Source: Embleya scabrispora (GTDB lineage: Bacteria > Actinomycetota > Actinomycetes > Streptomycetales > Streptomycetaceae). Taken from it: a DNA stretch of 64,000 nucleotides. A model generated the notes under the pieces. The model was given only the letters and a program-made list of their open reading frames with translations. It searched no databases and had not been told where the DNA came from. The DNA lies in the NCBI RefSeq assembly GCF_002024165.1, contig NZ_MWQN01000001.1, forward strand, positions 4,443,501-4,507,500. The letters run 5' to 3'. Below are positions 1 to 10,068 of this stretch, one piece after another (the stretch's first letter is position 1; every line of letters starts with the position of its first letter). The position numbers and the translations under genes were made by a program.

Positions 1-321
1 GCCGGCCGCGACGTGGTCGCCGCGTCCTGGCTGCCGCACCAGGCCGACCAGGGCTACCGGGTCACCCTGCAACTGGAGGCCCTGGACCGCCCCCGCCTCC
101 TCGCCGACGTCACCGCCGCGATCGACGCGGAGGGCGCCGACATCACCTCGGCCTCGATCGCGCCGCCGCAGCAGATGCGCGTCCGACAGACCTACACGAT
201 CCGCCTGGCCGACCTGGCCACCCTCCCGAAGCTGCTTCGGGCCCTGCGCCGGGTGCAGGGCGTATACGACGTCTACCGGGCGAGGCCGCGCGTACACCCG
301 AGGGTGGCGGACCGACCCTAG
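1..321 (+). CDS. RelA/SpoT-family protein, C-terminal ACT domain (5' truncated by window edge)
   Basis: The frame is open from base 1, so the gene begins before the window. The visible ~106 residues form one ACT domain: a beta strand with YRVTLQLEALDRPRLLADVT, an alpha-beta middle, and a final RRVQGVYDVYRA strand. This pattern is the C-terminal ACT domain of RelA/SpoT (p)ppGpp synthetases/hydrolases, which sense amino-acid starvation signals and tune the catalytic half. The catalytic domains are outside the window, so the synthetase or hydrolase status is unknown; a second, RshA-like homologue is possible because the ACT sequence is divergent. The TAG stop overlaps the stop of the convergent MarR gene. 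Family assignment is inferred from this domain only. Confidence 0.7.
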   Translation, partial: AGRDVVAASWLPHQADQGYRVTLQLEALDRPRLLADVTAAIDAEGADITSASIAPPQQMRVRQTYTIRLADLATLPKLLRALRRVQGVYDVYRARPRVHPRVADRP

Positions 322-331
322 GGTCGGTCCG
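308..331. terminator. Perfect 24-bp palindrome carrying both convergent stop codons
   Basis: Arms CGGACCGACCCT and AGGGTCGGTCCG are exact inverted repeats with no loop bases. The central CTAG holds the TAG stop of the + gene (319-321) and, on the other strand, the TAG stop of the MarR gene (318-320). It can fold in RNA from either side once a small loop is allowed, so it may act as a shared terminator. No U-run follows, which is usual in high-GC actinomycetes. Confidence 0.55.
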
Positions 332-821
332 ATCCGCTCGACCGGCCCTGGCTCGGCCGGGTCCGATCGGGCTCGACGCCGACCTCCGCCACGTCGCCGC
401 GCAGGACGTCGTTGAAGCGGGCCAAGTGGTCCGCGAGCGCGCCCAGTTCCTCCTTGGGCCAGGAGGCGAACCGTTCCGCCATCACCGCGAGGCTGCGCCT
501 GCGCGCGTCGGCGAGCCGCAACCGGCCGGCTTCGGTGACGGTGATCAGGTGCGATCGGCGATTGGTCGGGTCGGTGGTCCGGGCGATCAGCAGGGCCTCC
601 TCCAGGGAGGTCAACTGCCGACTGATCGTGGTCTTGTCCAGGCTCAGCAGGCAGGCGAGTTCCTTGCCGGTCGAGGTGCCGCGCTCCTCCAAAAGGGCGA
701 GCAGGTGAAACTCCGCCTGGGTGATCCCCGCGGCCTGGAGCGGAGGAGCCATCAACAGCCGAATCAACCGGGTGGCGGCACCGACCTCACGGACCACTCG
801 CCGCTCAACGCTGTCCGACAT
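318..821 (-). CDS. MarR-family transcriptional regulator
   Basis: A 167-residue winged-helix regulator. The start ATG at 821 is chosen because GAGGAG lies 7 bases upstream; an in-frame ATG at 836 overlaps that ribosome site and is less likely. The order is an N-terminal dimer helix, recognition region with KELACLLSLDKTTISRQLTSLEE (residues ~50-75), and the wing DPTNRRSHLITVTEAGR, which contains the conserved D-R-R-S signature of MarR wings. MarR proteins usually repress neighbouring genes and release DNA on binding phenolic or other small ligands. Two dyads upstream (841-859, 877-891) may be its own operators. The nearest possible target is the acyl-CoA ligase, but a 3.3-kb repeat lies between them. 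The C-terminal ~20 residues are a basic, disordered extension. Confidence 0.88.
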   Translation of the reverse strand: MSDSVERRVVREVGAATRLIRLLMAPPLQAAGITQAEFHLLALLEERGTSTGKELACLLSLDKTTISRQLTSLEEALLIARTTDPTNRRSHLITVTEAGRLRLADARRRSLAVMAERFASWPKEELGALADHLARFNDVLRGDVAEVGVEPDRTRPSQGRSSGSDRP

Positions 822-840
822 CGCCTTGCTCCTCATCACC

Positions 841-891
841 GCGCACCCTGAATGTGCGCCAAGCGTGCCGGAAACGGTTGCAAAACACAAC
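841..891 (-). promoter_or_regulatory. Two inverted repeats upstream of marR
   Basis: GCGCAC-N7-GTGCGC (841-859) and GTTG-N7-CAAC (877-891) lie 20-70 bases upstream of the chosen marR start. Both have the seven-base spacer, compatible with a dimeric winged-helix protein and with autoregulation. Binding is inferred; no family consensus was matched. Confidence 0.4.
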
Positions 892-894
892 AAG

Positions 895-1340
895 CTGCGC
901 CGGGTGGGGGATGGGGGTATGGGGCGGGGGCGCGGGGAGTCGGGTGGGGGGCGGGGCGGGTGCCGGGGCGTGGGGTGGGTGAGGCGTGGTGCGTGGGTCG
1001 TGGGGTGGGTGAGATGGGGTGGCGGGGTTGTGAGGTGAGCGGGGTCGGGGTTGGGGGTGGGTGAGGCGCGGTGCCGGGGGCGTGGGGTGGGTGAGATGGG
1101 GTGCGGGGGTTGTGGGGTGGGTGGGGCGCGGTGCCGGGGCGTGGGGTGGGTGAGATGAGGTGCCGGGATTGCGGAGTGGGTGAGAGGCGTGGTGCGTGGG
1201 TGGTGGGGGGCAAGGAGGGGTGCTGGGGCTGCGAGGTGAGCGGGGTCGGCGCGGGGGGCGTGAGGTGGGCAAGTGGGGCGCTGGAGCTGCGGGGTGAGCG
1301 GGGGCGTGGGGTGAGTGAGGTGGTGGGCGTGGGGAGGCCA
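895..1340. repeat. G-rich degenerate repeat tract, G-quadruplex-prone
   Basis: The + strand is built of irregular repeats around GTGGGGTGGGTGAGATGG and GCGGTGCCGGGGCGTG, almost free of pyrimidine runs. Many GGGG-N-GGG blocks lie close together, so four-tract G-quadruplex motifs are abundant on the + strand. All frames stay open because of composition, and the predicted products (Gly/Val/Trp-rich, or Pro/His-rich on the other strand) look like no protein family. No gene is supported here. Confidence 0.75.
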
Positions 1341-1800
1341 CGCGCGGTGCCGGAGTCCGCCGCGAGCGGGTGGGTGGGCGTGGTCGCGGCTGCGGGAGCG
1401 AAGGGGTGGGCCGGGGTCGCGGGGTGAGGAGCGGGCTGGGCTGGAGTTGTGACGAGAGCGAAGGGGTGGGCCGGGGTCGCGGCGGGAGCGGGTGGGTGGG
1501 CGCGGTCGCGACGGGAGCAGGACGGCAGGCACAGTCGCGGCGGGAGGGCAGGGGTGGGCCGGAGTCGTGGCGGCGGCGGTGGCTTTTTGTTGGGCGCTTC
1601 GCGCCGGCTCGCGGGGCACCGCTTTTCTGCTCCCCCGCTTCGCTCCTCCGCAGAAAAGCGGCACCCCGCTTGCGGCTGTGCGCCCCTCCGCTTCGCTCCG
1701 GGTCGCCCAGCCTGAAAAAACAAGCGGCGGCTCCGCCGCTCTCCGCGCTTCGCGCGTCGATCACCATCTCGACCAGGGTCGTGGGCGCTGACGCGCCGAC
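1341..1800. repeat. Decayed inverted copy of the ~318-bp repeat unit
   Basis: Read on the minus strand, this stretch carries the same landmarks as the direct array that follows: the (C)GCCGCCGCC run, GCGAAGCGCCCAACAAAAAG, the 12-bp hairpin arms CCGCTTTTCTGC/GCAGAAAAGCGG (~1620-1660), the GGAGCGAAGCGGAGGGG box, and the end box matching GGCGCGTCAGCGCC near 1785-1798. The left part (1341-1580) is more diverged and grades into the G-rich tract. It faces the direct array across a ~110-base spacer (1801-1910), giving a large inverted repeat. Confidence 0.75.
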
Positions 1801-1910
1801 GGGATGCACCAACGACTCGGGTCACCGGGCAAGGCCCACATCGCGACGGTGACCAGGCGGGGTGGGACCCGCGTCATCCCGCGAGCCTGGCCTCCCCACC
1901 TCTCACCCCC

Positions 1911-4215
1911 GTGGCGCGTCAGCGCCCACGACCCGGGCCGCCCACGCGATCGACGCGCGCAGCGCGGAGAGCGGCGGAGCCGCGGTGTTGTGGGTCGGAT
2001 GGCCCGGAGCGAAGCGGAGGGACAGCCGACCCCGAGCGAGGGGCCGCTTTTCTGCGGAGGAGCGAAGCGGGGGAGCAGAAAAGTGGTGCCTCGCGAGCCG
2101 GCGCGGAGCGCCCAACAAGAAGCAACGCGGCGCCCGCGACTTCGCCCGCCCCCGGCTCTCTCCGCGATTCGGCCGTTGCGACCGCCACCCCCGTGGCGCG
2201 TCAGCGCCCACGACCCGGGCCGCCCACGCGATCGACGCGCGCAGCGCGGAGAGCGGCGGAGCCGCCTTGTGTTTTTTTGGGCTGGGCGACCCGGAGCGAA
2301 GCGGAGGGGCGCACAGCCGCGAGCGGGGTGCCGCTTTTCTGCGGAGGAGCGAAGCGGGGGAGCAGAAAAGTGGTGCCTCGCGAGCCGGCGCGAAGCGCCC
2401 AATAAAAAGCCGCCGCCGCCACCACGACTCCGGCCCGCCCCTTCGCTCCCGCCGCGACTTCGCCCGCCCACCGTCTCTCTCCGCGAGTCGGCCGTTGCGA
2501 CCGCCACCCCGTGGCGCGTCAGCGCCCACGCCCCAGGCCGCCCACGCGATCGACGCGCGAAGCGCGGAGAGCGGCGGAGCCGCCGTTTGTTTTTTGGGCT
2601 GGGCGACCCGGAGCGAAGCGGAGGGGCGCACAGCCGCGAGCGGGGTGCCGCTTTTCTGCGGAGGAGCGAAGCGGGGGAGCAGAAAAGCGGTGCCTCGCGA
2701 GCCGGCGCGAAGCGCCCAACAAAAAGCCGCCGCCGCCACCACGACCCCGGCCCGCCCCTTCACTCCCCCCGCGACTTCGCCCGCCCCCGGCTCTCTCCGC
2801 GATTCGGCCGTTGCGACCGCCACCCCCGTGGCGCGTCAGCGCCCACGACCCGGGCCGCCCACGCGATCGACGCGCGCAGCGCGGAGAGCGGCGGAGCCGC
2901 CTTGTGTTTTTTTGGGCTGGGCGACCCGGAGCGAAGCGGAGGGGCGCACAGCCGCGAGCGGGGTGCCGCTTTTCTGCGGAGGAGCGAAGCGGGGGAGCAG
3001 AAAAGTGGTGCCTCGCGAGCCGGCGCGAAGCGCCCAATAAAAAGCCGCCGCCGCCACCACGACTCCGGCCCGCCCCTTCGCTCCCGCCGCGACTTCGCCC
3101 GCCCACCGTCTCTCTCCGCGAGTCGGCCGTTGCGACCGCCACCCCGTGGCGCGTCAGCGCCCACGCCCCAGGCCGCCCACGCGATCGACGCGCGAAGCGC
3201 GGAGAGCGGCGGAGCCGCCGTTTGTTTTTTGGGCTGGGCGACCCGGAGCGAAGCGGAGGGGCGCACAGCCGCGAGCGGGGTGCCGCTTTTCTGCGGAGGA
3301 GCGAAGCGGGGGAGCAGAAAAGCGGTGCCTCGCGAGCCGGCGCGAAGCGCCCAACAAAAAGCCGCCGCCGCCACCACGACCCCGGCCCGCCCCTTCACTC
3401 CCCCCGCGACTTCGCCCGCCCCCGGCTCTCTCCGCGATTCGGCCGTTGCGACCGCCACCCCCGTGGCGCGTCAGCGCCCACGACCCGGGCCGCCCACGCG
3501 ATCGACGCGCGCAGCGCGGAGAGCGGCGGAGCCGCCTTGTGTTTTTTTGGGCTGGGCGACCCGGAGCGAAGCGGAGGGGCGCACAGCCGCGAGCGGGGTG
3601 CCGCTTTTCTGCGGAGGAGCGAAGCGGGGGAGCAGAAAAGTGGTGCCTCGCGAGCCGGCGCGAAGCGCCCAATAAAAAGCCGCCGCCGCCACCACGACTC
3701 CGGCCCGCCCCTTCGCTCCCGCCGCGACTTCGCCCGCCCACCGTCTCTCTCCGCGAGTCGGCCGTTGCGACCGCCACCCCGTGGCGCGTCAGCGCCCACG
3801 CCCCAGGCCGCCCACGCGATCGACGCGCGAAGCGCGGAGAGCGGCGGAGCCGCCGTTTGTTTTTTGGGCTGGGCGACCCGGAGCGAAGCGGAGGGGCGCA
3901 CAGCCGCGAGCGGGGTGCCGCTTTTCTGCGGAGGAGCGAAGCGGGGGAGCAGAAAAGCGGTGCCTCGCGAGCCGGCGCGAAGCGCCCAACAAAAAGCCGC
4001 CGCCGCCACCACGACCCCGGCCCGCCCCTTCACTCCCCCCGCGACTTCGCCCGCCCACCGTCTCTCTCCGCGAGCAAGCCGTTGCGACCGCCACCCCGTG
4101 GCGCGTCAGCGCCCACGCCCCGGGCCGCCCACGCGATCGACGCGCGCAGCGCGGAGAGCGGCGGAGCCGCAGAGAAGTGGTCCCTCGCGAGCCGGCGCGA
4201 AGCGCCCGGCAAAAG
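1911..4215. repeat. Tandem array: alternating 318/317-bp units forming 635-bp higher-order repeats
   Basis: The box GTGGCGCGTCAGCGCCCACG recurs at 1911, 2193, 2511, 2828, 3146, 3463, 3781 and 4098. Spacing is 282 for the first unit and then alternates 318, 317, 318, 317, 318, 317. Two unit types differ by a few bases (CTTGTGTTTTTTTGGGC against GTTTGTTTTTTGGGC), so the true period is 635 bp, in three near-identical copies (2193-2827, 2828-3462, 3463-4097). The last copy differs in its final ~60 bases. The terminal unit (4098-4215) lacks its central hairpin. Each unit contains a 12-bp-stem hairpin (CCGCTTTTCTGC/GCAGAAAAGCGG) and a GGCGC-GTCA-GCGCC hairpin. No spacers, no conserved frame and no protein-coding sense are seen. 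Confidence 0.92.
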
Positions 4216-4307
4216 GTTCCCGCGATGCGATCTCCGCATTAGCGTGGATGCGCTCCCAACCCCCGGTACACCAGTCGCTCGCAGCGTGCAGGAGGTGGAC
4301 CCACCGG

Positions 4308-6023
4308 ATGCTGGATCGGACACAGGCCCTGGCCGAACTGACCGGACCCGAATCGGCCTACGCGATCGAGGAGGTCGTCCACGACGGCATTCCCTGGCGG
4401 GTGCTGAGCAAGGCCCCGCCGACGTTGCGCGCGGTCTTCGAGGGCCTGATCGGCCACGGCGACCGGGACGCGCTGGTCTACCGGGGCGAGCGCATCTCCT
4501 ACGCCGAACAACACCGCCTCGTCGCCCACCTGGCCCGACATCTGGCCGACGAGTACGGCGTGCGGCGCGGCGACCGGGTGGCCGTCGCGATGCGCAACCG
4601 GATCGAATGGCCGCTCGCGTTCTGGGCTACCCAGGTGCTCGGCGCGATCGCGGTACCGCTGAACGCGTGGTGGACCGTCGACGAACTCCGCTACGCCCTG
4701 GAGGACTCCGGCACCACGGTGCTGATCTGCGACGACGAGCGGGCCGACCTGATCCGGGGGCGGGCCGGCGGCGCACTGCCCACCCTGGTGGCCGGTCTCG
4801 ACGAGCCGCCGGCGGCCGGCGAGGCGGACCTGACGGCGCTGCTGCGCGGGTTCACCGGCGAGTGCGCGCTGCCGGACGGCGGCCCGGAGCCGTTCGACGA
4901 CGCGACCATCATCTACACGTCCGGCACCACCGGGCGCCCCAAGGGCGCGGTCGCCACCCACCACAACCACACCACCAACCTGCACACGATGGAGCTGACC
5001 CGGGCGGTCGCACTGGCCCGCGCCGGCCTGCCCATCGCCGAGTTGGCCAAGGGCCCGGCGCTGCCCGACGGGTTCCCGACCGGCGCGGCCGCGCCGGGCA
5101 GCCTGCAGGTCTACCCGTTCTTCCACGTCGCCGGCCTGTCCGGCCTGTACATCGGCGCCGCCCAGGGCGCCAAGCTGTGCCTGATGCACCACTGGGACAC
5201 CGCCACCGCGCTCGAACTGATCGAGACCGAGCGGCTGTCCACCGCCAACATGGTGCCCACGCTGCTGCGCCGGCTGGTCGAGTCGCCGCTGCGCGCCGGG
5301 CGCGACCTGTCCAGCCTGACCAGCCTGGGCATGGGCGGCTCGCCGGTGCCGCCGGACCTGGTCGCCCTGGTGGGCGGCATGTCCGGCAACACGATCGTGC
5401 CGTTGAACGCCTACGGGATGACCGAGACGACCTGCGTGGTGGTGGTCAACTCGGGCGACGACTACTACGAACACCCGGACAGCGTCGGGCACCCGGTGCC
5501 GGTCGCGGATCTGCGGGTGGCCGACCCGCTGACCGGGGAGGAACTGCCGATCGGACGCACGGGCGAGATCCGGGTGCGCGGCCCGCACGTGGTCCGGGGC
5601 TATTGGAATCGGCCCCGGGAGAGCGAGGAGGCATTCCCCGGCGGGTGGTTCCGTACCGGCGACCTCGGCTACGTCGACACCGACGGGCGGCTGTACGTGG
5701 TCGACCGGCTCAAGGACGTGATCATCCGAGGCGGCGAGAACGTCTACTCGGCCGAGGTCGAGGCGATCCTGTTCGAGCACCCGGCGATCTCCGAGGTGGC
5801 CGTGGTCGGGGTGCCGCACCACGACCTGGGCGAGGAGGTCGCGGCGGTGGTCCGGCTGCACGTGCCCGGCGCGGCGAGCGCGGCCGAACTGCGCGGGCAC
5901 GTGGCGCGTCGGCTCGCCGCGTTCAAGGTGCCCACGCTGGTTCGCTTCACCGAACGGGCGCTGCCGCGCAACGCGGTCGGGAAGGTGCTCAAGCGCGAAC
6001 TGCGGGACATGCTCGCGCTGTGA
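4308..6023 (+). CDS. Class I adenylate-forming acyl-CoA synthetase/ligase
   Basis: A 571-residue ANL-superfamily enzyme that activates a carboxylic acid to acyl-AMP and transfers it to CoA. Visible motifs are the P-loop YTSGTTGRPKG (residues ~203-213), YGMTET (~369), the hinge region WFRTGDLGYVD followed by DRLKDVIIRGGENVY (~447-475), and the C-terminal catalytic lysine in NAVGKVLKREL (~559). Length is normal for fatty-acyl-CoA ligases; substrate cannot be read from sequence. ATG 4308 is chosen because GGAGG lies 12 bases upstream and the family N-terminus fits. The frame stays open far upstream into the repeats, but that extension is composed of repeat DNA and is not coding. It is followed by a strong hairpin and a convergent kinase. 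Confidence 0.92.
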   Translation: MLDRTQALAELTGPESAYAIEEVVHDGIPWRVLSKAPPTLRAVFEGLIGHGDRDALVYRGERISYAEQHRLVAHLARHLADEYGVRRGDRVAVAMRNRIEWPLAFWATQVLGAIAVPLNAWWTVDELRYALEDSGTTVLICDDERADLIRGRAGGALPTLVAGLDEPPAAGEADLTALLRGFTGECALPDGGPEPFDDATIIYTSGTTGRPKGAVATHHNHTTNLHTMELTRAVALARAGLPIAELAKGPALPDGFPTGAAAPGSLQVYPFFHVAGLSGLYIGAAQGAKLCLMHHWDTATALELIETERLSTANMVPTLLRRLVESPLRAGRDLSSLTSLGMGGSPVPPDLVALVGGMSGNTIVPLNAYGMTETTCVVVVNSGDDYYEHPDSVGHPVPVADLRVADPLTGEELPIGRTGEIRVRGPHVVRGYWNRPRESEEAFPGGWFRTGDLGYVDTDGRLYVVDRLKDVIIRGGENVYSAEVEAILFEHPAISEVAVVGVPHHDLGEEVAAVVRLHVPGAASAAELRGHVARRLAAFKVPTLVRFTERALPRNAVGKVLKRELRDMLAL

Positions 6024-6056
6024 CGGACGGGACGACCGTGGGCGACGCGGGCCCGC

Positions 6057-6097
6057 GACGGGCGGCCGGCGGCGGGCCCCGCCGCCGGCCGCCCGTC
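6057..6097. terminator. Bidirectional hairpin terminator between ligase and kinase
   Basis: A 17-bp perfect stem (core arm ACGGGCGGCCGGCGGC) closes a 7-base loop GGGCCCC between the two convergent stop codons (6023 and 6101). No T-run follows on either side. Its position and stability support termination in both directions. Confidence 0.8.
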
Positions 6098-6100
6098 CGG

Positions 6101-7884
<1,784 letters not shown>

Positions 7885-8063
7885 CGCCTCGGGGACGGGG
7901 CCCGGGGCCGCCGGGTTTCGCGGGGGCAACGCGACGTCCCCGGTCCACATGGTGTGGCCGGGGACGGGGAGCGCGTCGAGGTCGAGAGCACTGGGTACGG
8001 CGAACTGCCGCGTCGACTGGTCGACGCCGGGATGCCGGCGGCCGTGCCGGCCGCCGGCGAGGA

Positions 8064-8270
8064 TCAGCGGTAGTTGCCGAGACCCGTGCAGGGGGCGTGC
8101 CGCTCGACGAGGCAGACGGTGTCGTCGATCGTCATCAACCGGCCGCCGACGATCTCCGGGGCGCGGAACACCGGAGTCTGCAGGGTGACGAGCGAGCGCG
8201 GGCTGAGCGCCGCGACATACGGCTCGCCGCAACGGGTGCACATGGCGGGGGCGGTGAGGGTCTTCAGCAT
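8064..8270 (-). CDS. Small CxxC protein (68 aa), paralogous to the C-terminal part of the 8755-9303 product
   Basis: ATG 8270 follows GGAGGAAGCACC, a good ribosome site. The protein begins with a CTRCGEPY motif, continues with an SPRSLVTLQTPV segment and ends with DDTVCLVERHAPCTG. The gene product at 8755-9303 carries the same order: CTRCNEPYIA, a YLSRIDAPV segment and TTYIVERHVLC. The pattern of two CxxC-type or Cys/His elements suggests a single metal-binding knuckle, but no ligand set is proven. I do not recognise a named family. It lies 180 bases upstream of the kinase on the same strand and could be cotranscribed with it. Confidence 0.7.
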   Translation of the reverse strand: MLKTLTAPAMCTRCGEPYVAALSPRSLVTLQTPVFRAPEIVGGRLMTIDDTVCLVERHAPCTGLGNYR

Positions 8271-8402
8271 GGTGCTTCCTCCGTGACTGGTGACGTTAAC
8301 CTTCCGTTCACCTTCGGTTCGGTCTCCAGTTTCCTTCTTGGATCGGTAAATGTCAACTGTGTTGGCCTACGGAGGTGGCCGCACATATGGCATCCTGACG
8401 GT

Positions 8403-8627
8403 GTGGATCACAAGGATGTCGGCGGCGCGGATCCCGAAGCCGCCGAAGAAGGCCTGGTCAGGGCCGCGAAGGCCTACCGAAAAACCGAGAAGGCGCACGA
8501 AGAGGCGCGTCAGGAACTCAAGCGGGCGGCGATCCGGGCGATGGGCGCGGGGGTCAAGCAGTCCGAGGTGGTCAAGGTCACCGGCTGGACACGTGAATAC
8601 CTGCGACGTTTGAAGAAGGACCGCTAG
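8403..8627 (+). CDS. Small helix-turn-helix protein (74 aa)
   Basis: A short basic protein: an acidic start (DHKDVGGADPEAAEEGL), a charged amphipathic helix (RAAKAYRKTEKAHEEARQEL), and a C-terminal helix-turn-helix of the form RAMGAGVKQSEVVKVTGWTREYLRRL. This layout is common in streptomycete putative DNA-binding proteins of unknown target. GTG 8403 is chosen because the acidic N-terminus starts here; no clear ribosome site is present, and CATCCT six bases upstream could be a -10 element of a leaderless transcript. It is flanked on both sides by the minus-strand CxxC paralogues, which suggests it may regulate them, although that is inference. Confidence 0.7.
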   Translation: MDHKDVGGADPEAAEEGLVRAAKAYRKTEKAHEEARQELKRAAIRAMGAGVKQSEVVKVTGWTREYLRRLKKDR

Positions 8628-8687
8628 GACCGGCGACGGCCGAGGACCGCGACGGCGACCGGGGACCGCGAGGGACCGCGAAGACGA

Positions 8688-8722
8688 GAGAGGCCGGGGC
8701 CCCGGACGGGGAACCGGCCTCT
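8688..8722. terminator. Hairpin between convergent small genes
   Basis: AGAGGCCGG (8689-8697) pairs with CCGGCCTCT (8714-8722), with a G-U pair adding to the stem and a 16-base GC-rich loop. It lies between the convergent stops at 8627 and 8755. Confidence 0.65.
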
Positions 8723-8754
8723 TCGGTGCGCGCCGGCGTCGGCGTGCCGTGCGG

Positions 8755-9303
8755 TCAGGCGTTGTCGAGGTCGGCCGGGTTCTCGAATTCGGGCAGGCCG
8801 GCCGGGTCGGTCGCACCCCCGAACGCGCACAACACGTGGCGCTCGACGATGTAGGTGGTGCCCGACGCGTTGAACACCTGCCCCGACACGGGGGCGTCGA
8901 TCCGGGACAGGTAGCGCCGCTGAGTGGGGATCAACTGGGCGATGTACGGCTCGTTGCAGCGGGTGCAGGTGGCCGGCGTCGCGGTCGGCGAGGCCGCGGC
9001 GTAGCGGTCCAGGGCGATGACGAGCCGGTCGGCCAGGTGCGCGGCGGTGCGCTGGGTGGCGGCGACCCGCTCCGGATCGCCCGCCTCGCGGGACTCGGCG
9101 CAGGCCCGGAGTGCGTCGCCGATCCGGCGCAGCGCCACCTTGTGGAACGGCGGTGCCTGTGTGGACAGCGCGTCCGCGCGGTCGGCGATCGAACCGGCGG
9201 AACCGGCGAACGCGGGGTGCCGCTGGGCACCCTCGGCGCCGAGGGCCGAGACATCGGCGGCGAGGCCGCGCAGCGCGGTCACGTGCTCGGGCGTCAGGCT
9301 CAT
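8755..9303 (-). CDS. Hypothetical protein with helical N-terminal domain and CxxC C-terminal module (182 aa)
   Basis: ATG 9303 follows AAAGGAAC and is preferred to an upstream ATG at 9399. Residues ~1-120 are predicted to be a helical bundle rich in Ala/Arg (ALRGLAADVSALGAEGAQ and later ADRLVIALDRYAAA). Residues ~125-170 hold the module CTRCNEPYIA - LSRIDAPV - TYIVERHVLC that also makes up the whole 68-residue protein at 8064-8270. It ends with an acidic tail (FENPADLDNA). I do not recognise the family; duplication of the C-terminal module around a small HTH gene suggests a local gene set. Confidence 0.75.
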   Translation of the reverse strand: MSLTPEHVTALRGLAADVSALGAEGAQRHPAFAGSAGSIADRADALSTQAPPFHKVALRRIGDALRACAESREAGDPERVAATQRTAAHLADRLVIALDRYAAASPTATPATCTRCNEPYIAQLIPTQRRYLSRIDAPVSGQVFNASGTTYIVERHVLCAFGGATDPAGLPEFENPADLDNA

Positions 9304-9585
9304 GGTGTGCCGTTCCTTTCTGCCGTCCGACGGGGAGGCAACTCCGTTCGATGGGAGGCAACCCGTCCATAGTGGACAGACTCGACCGCTAAACGCCATG
9401 GAATGTGACGATCGGCACGTTCATGGACGGTTTGTCGGAGTTTGTCGAGCGGTAAACCCGGCCGGCGGCGGCGTGCGATGTGGCGATCCGAAGACGAAAC
9501 CGTTATGCAATGGCCGAAAAGTTCCCCTTGTCGGGGGCAGAGCGAGGGGAGGAGAGTCACGATCACGTCGTTTTAGGGGGAATAC

Positions 9586-10068
9586 ATGCGCACTGTGAAA
9601 GTCGGACTGCTCGCGGTGATGCTGACGTGCGCCGTCGGCGCCTGCGGGAGCAGCGGGGACGACGGTTTCGGGGGCCTGGGGGCGAAGAAGACGCAGAGCG
9701 CGAGCGGCCCAAGCCCGTCGGAGGAGGAGAGCTCCACCACGCGCGCCACGGACGACACCTCGCCGACGCCCACCGCCGGCCGACCCACCACGACGCGTCC
9801 GCGCACGAGCGCGCCGGGCACCCCGACTTCGCCGGGCACCTCCGCGGGGACCGGCGGCGACTGGTCGTCCTCGTATTCGACGAGCTTCCTCAACGGCTGC
9901 CTCGGCACCTCGAACAACAACACCCGCTACTGCCAGTGCACGCTGACCGAGCTACAGGGCAAGTACAGCCAGGCGCAGATGAACGCGTTCGACCAGGAGT
10001 ACGCGCGCACCAACAAGCTGCCCGACGAGTTGCAGAGCACCGTGCAGAAGTGCCTGAACACCGGATGA
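9586..10068 (+). CDS. Predicted lipoprotein with C-terminal cysteine-containing domain
   Basis: ATG 9586 follows AGGGGG at a good distance. The first 20 residues are a lipoprotein signal peptide with lipobox VGAC (Cys20), so the mature protein should be lipid-anchored outside the membrane. Residues ~25-90 are a Ser/Thr/Pro-rich linker typical of exported actinobacterial proteins. The C-terminal ~65 residues form a small compact domain with four cysteines (NGCLG, YCQC, QKCLN), probably making two disulfides, and helix-forming sequence SQAQMNAFDQEYAR. Function is unknown. A strong hairpin follows at 10082. Confidence 0.85.
   Translation: MRTVKVGLLAVMLTCAVGACGSSGDDGFGGLGAKKTQSASGPSPSEEESSTTRATDDTSPTPTAGRPTTTRPRTSAPGTPTSPGTSAGTGGDWSSSYSTSFLNGCLGTSNNNTRYCQCTLTELQGKYSQAQMNAFDQEYARTNKLPDELQSTVQKCLNTG

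Follow-up and report, generated by a model that had tools for sequence, protein, structure and literature searches.

The window, by which we mean the whole stretch of 64,000 nucleotides analysed, lies on the 7.0-Mb contig of the studied genome of Embleya scabrispora (10.96 Mb, 8 contigs). Between two flanking genes, it carries a repeat array whose parts are listed in Table 1. The 5' motif of the repeat unit, GGCGCGTCAGCGCC, was found on the + strand at eight positions (1913, 2195, 2513, 2830, 3148, 3465, 3783, and 4100), the last seven of which followed one another at 318/317-bp intervals, and TRF reported a period of 317 across 2133-4170. Eight regular starts and 318/317-bp units in 635-bp super-units, as described in the first-pass annotation, were thus confirmed, and so was the alternation of two unit types, here called A and B, which shared 96.0% identity in an alignment with a single gap column. 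The three 635-bp copies, described there as near-identical, showed 100% mutual identity, which supports the view that the 635-bp pair, not the monomer, was amplified recently.

On the left, the array is faced by an inverted unit with about 90-92% identity to the A and B units and an inverted start at 1784-1797. The inverted copies noticed earlier were therefore present, although as one complete unit plus a minisatellite rather than as a decayed half of the array, and the spacer put at about 110 bases measured 115 (1798-1912) between the two GGCGCG ends of the inverted pair, of which about 100 form a conserved core. The first direct unit was 88-90% identical to the A and B units, and the two pieces of the terminal unit (4100-4215) each matched the unit separately. 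In the minisatellite, TRF detected a period of 30 at 927-1208 and 1364-1573, and the GC skew was +0.61 (900-1581). Extra short inverted matches appeared in the window because this minisatellite resembles the inter-unit linkers. The array is real: the genome contains at least 64 matches to a 635-bp query, the best at E = 0, so that chance is ruled out. These matches also exclude a repeat unique to one locus.

Table 1. Features of the repeat array and its flanks, in window coordinates.
Feature	Positions	Strand	Basis
MarR-family regulator, left flank, outside the element	321..821	-	Pfam PF01047, E 1.1e-13
G-rich ~30-bp degenerate minisatellite, outer tail of the inverted unit	900..1581		TRF, GC skew
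Inverted unit (left doublet arm, six hairpins)	1582..1797	-	Full-length match, L045:7083-7298
Asymmetric conserved core between the doublet arms	1798..1912	+	Kept at other doublets
First direct unit (right doublet arm), divergent subtype	1913..2123	+	L045:7414-7624 in alignment A1
Super-copy 1, 635 bp	2133..2767	+	Holds units 2195-2410 and 2513-2727 plus linkers; same sequence as copies 2 and 3 (100%)
Super-copy 2, 635 bp	2768..3402	+	Units 2830-3045 and 3148-3362; 100% identical
Super-copy 3, 635 bp	3403..4037	+	Units 3465-3680 and 3783-3997; 100% identical
Terminal unit with internal deletion (5' part joined to 3' part)	4100..4215	+	5' motif at 4100, 3' motif at 4191
AMP-binding (acyl-CoA ligase type) enzyme, right flank, outside the element	4308..6023	+	Pfam PF00501, E 4.7e-82

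The flanking genes allowed the locus to be compared with that of relatives. The MarR gene occupies the same position in E. scabrispora DSM 41855 and SID3343, and the AMP-binding enzyme shares 96% identity with its E. hyalina counterpart, 84% with that of E. scabrispora DSM 41855, and 78% with that of Streptomyces sp. SID3343. The interval between the two genes holds an enoyl-CoA hydratase gene (PF00378) and no array in E. scabrispora DSM 41855 (L069), at the place taken by the array at 898-4215 of the window; in SID3343 it also lacks the array and apparently retains just a remnant of the hydratase gene. E. hyalina also has an inverted pair at the locus; its spacer is longer, and contigs C51 and C43 break inside the pair. 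The doublet therefore existed before E. hyalina diverged, and the identical 635-bp copies are of later date.

Alignment of 80 copies defined a unit of about 216 nt with sharp ends. Its 5' end reads CCCCNN|GGCGCGTCAGCGCC, and the sequence upstream is locus-specific apart from the C-tract (C in 86% at -4 and 81% at -3); no conserved upstream promoter was found in the aligned copies. The 3' end reads GGCGC-GAA-GCGCCCAACAA, beyond which conservation fades across about 25 nt into locus-specific repeats of about 30 bp, and similar locus-specific 3' tails follow most other units in the genome. Hairpins of the form GGCGC..GCGCC stand at both unit ends in the studied species, and in E. scabrispora DSM 41855 and NBC_00888 the one at the 3' end has changed on its own (GGCGAC-GAA-GTCGCC). 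A T-run follows a G+C-rich hairpin in some A-type units and is missing from many copies. At L228 (E. hyalina C68, 1-920), the unit is represented by its initial ~71 nt alone, as inverted copies around long CTCGCGC repeats and adjoining a stretch of Ns; the 5' module may be able to spread, or to decay, by itself.

Six conserved hairpins (S1-S6) were found on the + strand of the unit, instead of the two per unit proposed earlier, and RNAalifold recovered the same helices unprompted. Across 61 copies, stem covariation was far above that of slid controls. In alignment A1, 98.9% of paired cells were complementary compared with 36-54% when partners were slid, both partners had changed in 13 pairs and 184 cells, and the score for covariation was 0.199 against a slid maximum of 0.061. 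S1-S3 are invariant in A1 and hence uninformative, and the covariation evidence comes from S4, S5, and S6; for these stems, addition of the SID3343 copies gave 16 doubly changed pairs and a score of 0.339, the slid maximum being 0.099. Mismatches on the + strand in S4 and S5 numbered 71 G.T and 5 A.C when counted over distinct stem haplotypes (about 14:1), or 160 and 5 when counted over copies; the copies share ancestry, so neither count represents independent events. Since strand-symmetric mutation would equalise G.T and A.C, this excess indicates that selection acts on the + strand in single-stranded form.

The S2 loop was GCA or GAA in all 80 copies, the S3 loop GGA in 77/80 and GAA in 2/80, and the S6 loop GAA or GGA in most copies, the remainder being partly parsing failures. 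The loops of these three hairpins are nearly all GNA, with a free middle base; the loop of S1 is GTNA, and S4 contains conserved purine-purine mismatches. Mean pair probabilities with DNA and RNA energies were 0.59 and 0.31 for S1, 0.84 and 0.62 for S4, and 0.68 and 0.20 for S6, whereas S2 folded better with RNA energies; overall, for five of the six hairpins, recovery with DNA energies was similar to or better than that with RNA energies. Fold z-scores for one unit were modest (RNA -2.6, DNA -1.4). From the loops and energies, we have a mild preference for single-stranded DNA over RNA as the probable folded form. At L176 (E. scabrispora DSM 41855 C158, 391-603), the apical loop of S5 is swapped for its reverse complement, TCCTCCGCTTCGCTCCTCC, which suggests hairpin processing at the DNA level.

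The unit is dispersed in the studied genome, with at least ~50 copies at ~34 intergenic places; copy numbers in all genomes searched are lower bounds. The 20-nt 3'-end motif, with at most one mismatch, gave at least 56 matches in the studied genome and at least 21 in E. hyalina, and its reversed-pattern control gave 0 in either genome. Thirty loci lie on the 7.0-Mb contig and 4 elsewhere (p 0.002), and 26 of the 30 chromosomal loci fall in the central 4 Mb of that contig (binomial p 7e-4). All 33 loci where genes could be called are intergenic. Genes were called with a simple script based on codon positions rather than with a trained gene finder; on these calls, the neighbours of the loci were convergent at 11, divergent at 9, and co-directional at 13, and the strand of the unit showed no clear bias relative to them.

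Full-length copies were present in 4/4 Embleya genomes (the studied genome, E. hyalina, E. scabrispora DSM 41855, and SID3343), the relatives being fragmented drafts, and also in Embleya sp. NBC_00888. They were found in 0/294 other Streptomycetaceae genomes sampled, which gave just short G+C-rich matches. A covariance model of the 3' part, run on 148 genomes of the order, gave strong matches only in Embleya and two borderline matches elsewhere. Rfam yielded no match above the gathering score for window positions 1-10000 or for four loci, which excludes a known RNA family, and in plasmid and phage collections the sole match over most of the unit was another Embleya replicon, on which ground a plasmid or phage origin was rejected. 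These searches agree with the first-pass statement that no named streptomycete element has such a form, and the search of genome and relatives suggested there showed that the unit is neither confined to one place nor a known insertion sequence. Palindromes, hairpins, and intergenic repeats are unmentioned in the Embleya genome paper (PMC13152386), and the papers found on Embleya do not describe the unit. The 5.73-Mb replicon of NBC_00888 (NZ_CP108785.1; ends L123/L124) has a telomere whose two copies, one at each end, match exactly for at least 5 kb, with GNA loops (GTA, GGA) on the 3' strand and a sequence unrelated to the unit.

Three forms of the repeat were observed: solo units, inverted doublets, and direct tandems (L035, L040, and the window). 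Thirteen inverted doublets and two remnants in the studied genome share the asymmetric core of about 100 bp, whose orientation is reversed at three doublet loci. At least 15 core copies were found in the studied genome, compared with at least 2, diverged, in the E. hyalina assembly, one of them at the window locus. A doublet burst confined to the studied genome was considered and set aside, because the doublet loci fall at contig ends in E. hyalina (9/13 orthologous loci, against 0/20 for solos), where doublets may be unassembled.

Units, doublets above all, coincide with contig ends in the assemblies of both E. hyalina and E. scabrispora DSM 41855; the family is therefore one cause of the fragmentation of Embleya genomes and accounts for part of it. 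Many contig ends of E. scabrispora DSM 41855 (e.g., C49, C162, C140, C187, and C90) lie inside units. E. hyalina C57 and C58 (L155, L157; ~33 kb) both align to one L040 flank up to the unit, at the same coordinate. Beyond the unit they differ, and C58 runs into the L022 flank, which represents either a rearrangement at the unit or an assembly chimera.

To assess mobility, the E. hyalina counterparts of the 33 loci were compared for presence of the unit. It was also present at, for example, L013, L023, L024, L030, L035, L036, and L040, and other loci were empty. At L042, L015, L016, L034, and L039 the unit occurred in the studied genome only; E. hyalina, E. scabrispora DSM 41855, and SID3343 had the same gene neighbours there without it. 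Recent insertion in the studied lineage is therefore the simplest account of these five loci, four of which (L042, L015, L034, and L039) gained solo units. At L033, E. scabrispora DSM 41855 has the unit and the other two relatives are empty. These genome comparisons show movement of the unit. The inserted segments, shown for seven sites, are ~0.4-1.5 kb long, larger than the unit, with C-rich filler on either side, and their ends do not match the unit ends. The target-site duplications for which a check had been advised were not visible by eye at these seven sites against E. hyalina. At L015 (~2750-3050), tandem repeats of ~88 bp with GTCCTCAAGCGCCGGACGGGCT adjoin the solo unit, in a segment absent from E. 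hyalina. The first-pass suggestion of a non-coding mobile or structural element is supported by the dispersed copies, lineage-specific insertions, and covarying hairpins.

The usual mobilising enzymes were searched for with protein family models. The Y1 transposase model (PF01797) had no match in the studied genome, whereas the positive control matched in 5/14 genomes, and an IS200/IS605 or RAYT system was ruled out on this basis. The reverse transcriptase model RVT_1 (PF00078) matched nothing in the studied genome or SID3343 and was present in two others; a reverse transcriptase was rejected as mobiliser, none being found in the studied genome. The Y2/HUH transposase model (PF04986), as expected for a rolling-circle element of the IS91/Helitron type, gave nothing in the four Embleya genomes, and its controls likewise gave nothing.

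Taken together, the array is probably one copy, amplified in place, of a mobile element that is specific to Embleya, non-coding, and non-autonomous, with a REPIN-like layout. The + strand of the ~216-nt unit folds into its six hairpins, and this folded single strand, more likely single-stranded DNA than RNA, would be recognised by a putative host or element enzyme as the element enters a new intergenic site by copying or capture. The window holds an inverted doublet around the ~100-bp core; its right side was then extended by direct tandem copies, and copying of the A+B dimer produced the three identical repeats. This tandem part probably arose later by ordinary processes, direct units recombining unequally or slipping during replication. 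Against this explanation stand the absence of Y1 and RVT_1 from the studied genome, the better folding of S2 with RNA energies, the modest fold z-scores, and the inserts, whose ends lie off the unit ends and which show no target-site duplication by eye, unlike classical transposition. A further reading, offered tentatively and rather improbable in our estimate, is a new class of mobile element with no Y1, Y2, or reverse-transcriptase partner, in which a telomere-like six-hairpin strand is copied or captured into intergenic sites. Capture might occur, for example, at breaks or via the telomere-replication proteins of linear actinomycete chromosomes, and would yield solos, inverted doublets, and tandem arrays.

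Selection at the RNA level would equally yield the G.T excess, which is a classic sign of RNA pairing and weighs against the single-stranded DNA reading. The + strand could accordingly be a structured non-coding RNA, either a SINE-like retroposon or a trans-acting RNA, whose transcript is the active or transposing form and keeps the hairpins and G.U pairs. The variable tandem-repeat 3' tails and the sharp 5' end resemble retroposons, and RNA energies favour S2. However, the studied genome and SID3343 lack RVT_1, no conserved promoter or consistent gene orientation was seen, the loops are nearly all GNA rather than GNRA or UNCG, and the element is absent from Rfam; we regard an RNA element as possible but doubtful. 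An origin as intergenic terminators or mRNA 3'-end stabilisers, duplicated and kept by selection on the neighbours, would fit the wholly intergenic placement, the very stable hairpins, and the T-run of some A-type units. Such a cis-acting role is unlikely, as many copies lack the T-run and presence or absence varies freely among species, and a terminator or UTR function was rejected on the unbiased orientation of neighbours.

The units could also be interstitial telomere-like DNA, that is, relics of, or substrates for, linear-replicon machinery of the Tap/Tpg type that recognises clustered GNA-loop palindromes. Streptomyces telomeres share palindromes, GNA loops, and compensatory changes (PMC7205883) with the unit, whose six hairpins carry GNA loops and whose S4 has purine-purine mismatches. 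Nevertheless, the loci concentrate away from the chromosome ends, and the 3' ends of the doublets face outward, opposite to the arrangement in fused telomeres, which makes this origin very unlikely. A telomere or its relic was ruled out by sequence, with no meaningful similarity to the unit in the telomere of the NBC_00888 replicon or in the contig ends of the studied genome, which are possibly not true ends. Finally, three identical 635-bp copies are what mis-assembly can produce. Assembler error in tandem copy number is nonetheless highly improbable: the contig is 7.0 Mb long in an 8-contig assembly, which resolved alternating A and B units, the divergence of the first unit, and the deletion in the last; E. 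hyalina has the inverted pair at the same locus, where its contigs break; and the dispersed family is independent of tandem copy number.

The repeat belongs to a so far undescribed family of mobile, structured repeats that extends across the genus, within a group of bacteria that matters for antibiotics. Strand selection and stem covariation show that the folded single strand is important to this family, and since the usual mobilising enzymes were not found, the identity of the mobiliser becomes a direct, answerable question.

Among known systems, the CGTC-tagged REPs (PMC3733652) are likewise palindromic repeats with no associated transposase, but they are single hairpins with 8-9-bp stems, mostly in alphaproteobacteria, and the Embleya unit greatly exceeds them in size and has a different architecture. 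MITEs and ERIC-type repeats (PMC10969869) are also short, non-coding, dispersed, intergenic, and strongly folding. Unlike them, the Embleya unit is G+C-rich, apparently has no terminal inverted repeats beyond its self-paired end hairpins, and has no parent IS that we could find, and because no target-site duplication was seen it is not a classical MITE. The telomeres of Streptomyces contain 5-8 palindromes with GNA loops, sheared purine pairs, and compensatory changes (PMC7205883). The unit resembles them in its clustered short palindromes, GNA (GCA/GGA) loops, purine-purine pairs, and compensatory changes, and differs in being interstitial, central in the chromosome, multi-copy, and unrelated in sequence to the Embleya telomere.

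In REPINs, RAYT tyrosine transposases mobilise doublets of inverted REPs (PMC3116915). The Embleya element is not classed among them. A REPIN arm is one short palindrome, whereas the Embleya arms are ~216 nt long with six hairpins; Y1/RAYT is absent from the studied Embleya genome, and solo units were inserted alone, so that the doublet is not the sole mobile unit. In other respects the likeness is close: both are intergenic and non-autonomous, form inverted doublets with a conserved spacer alongside singlets, build tandem arrays of alternating units, and combine single-strand hairpins with recent mobility.
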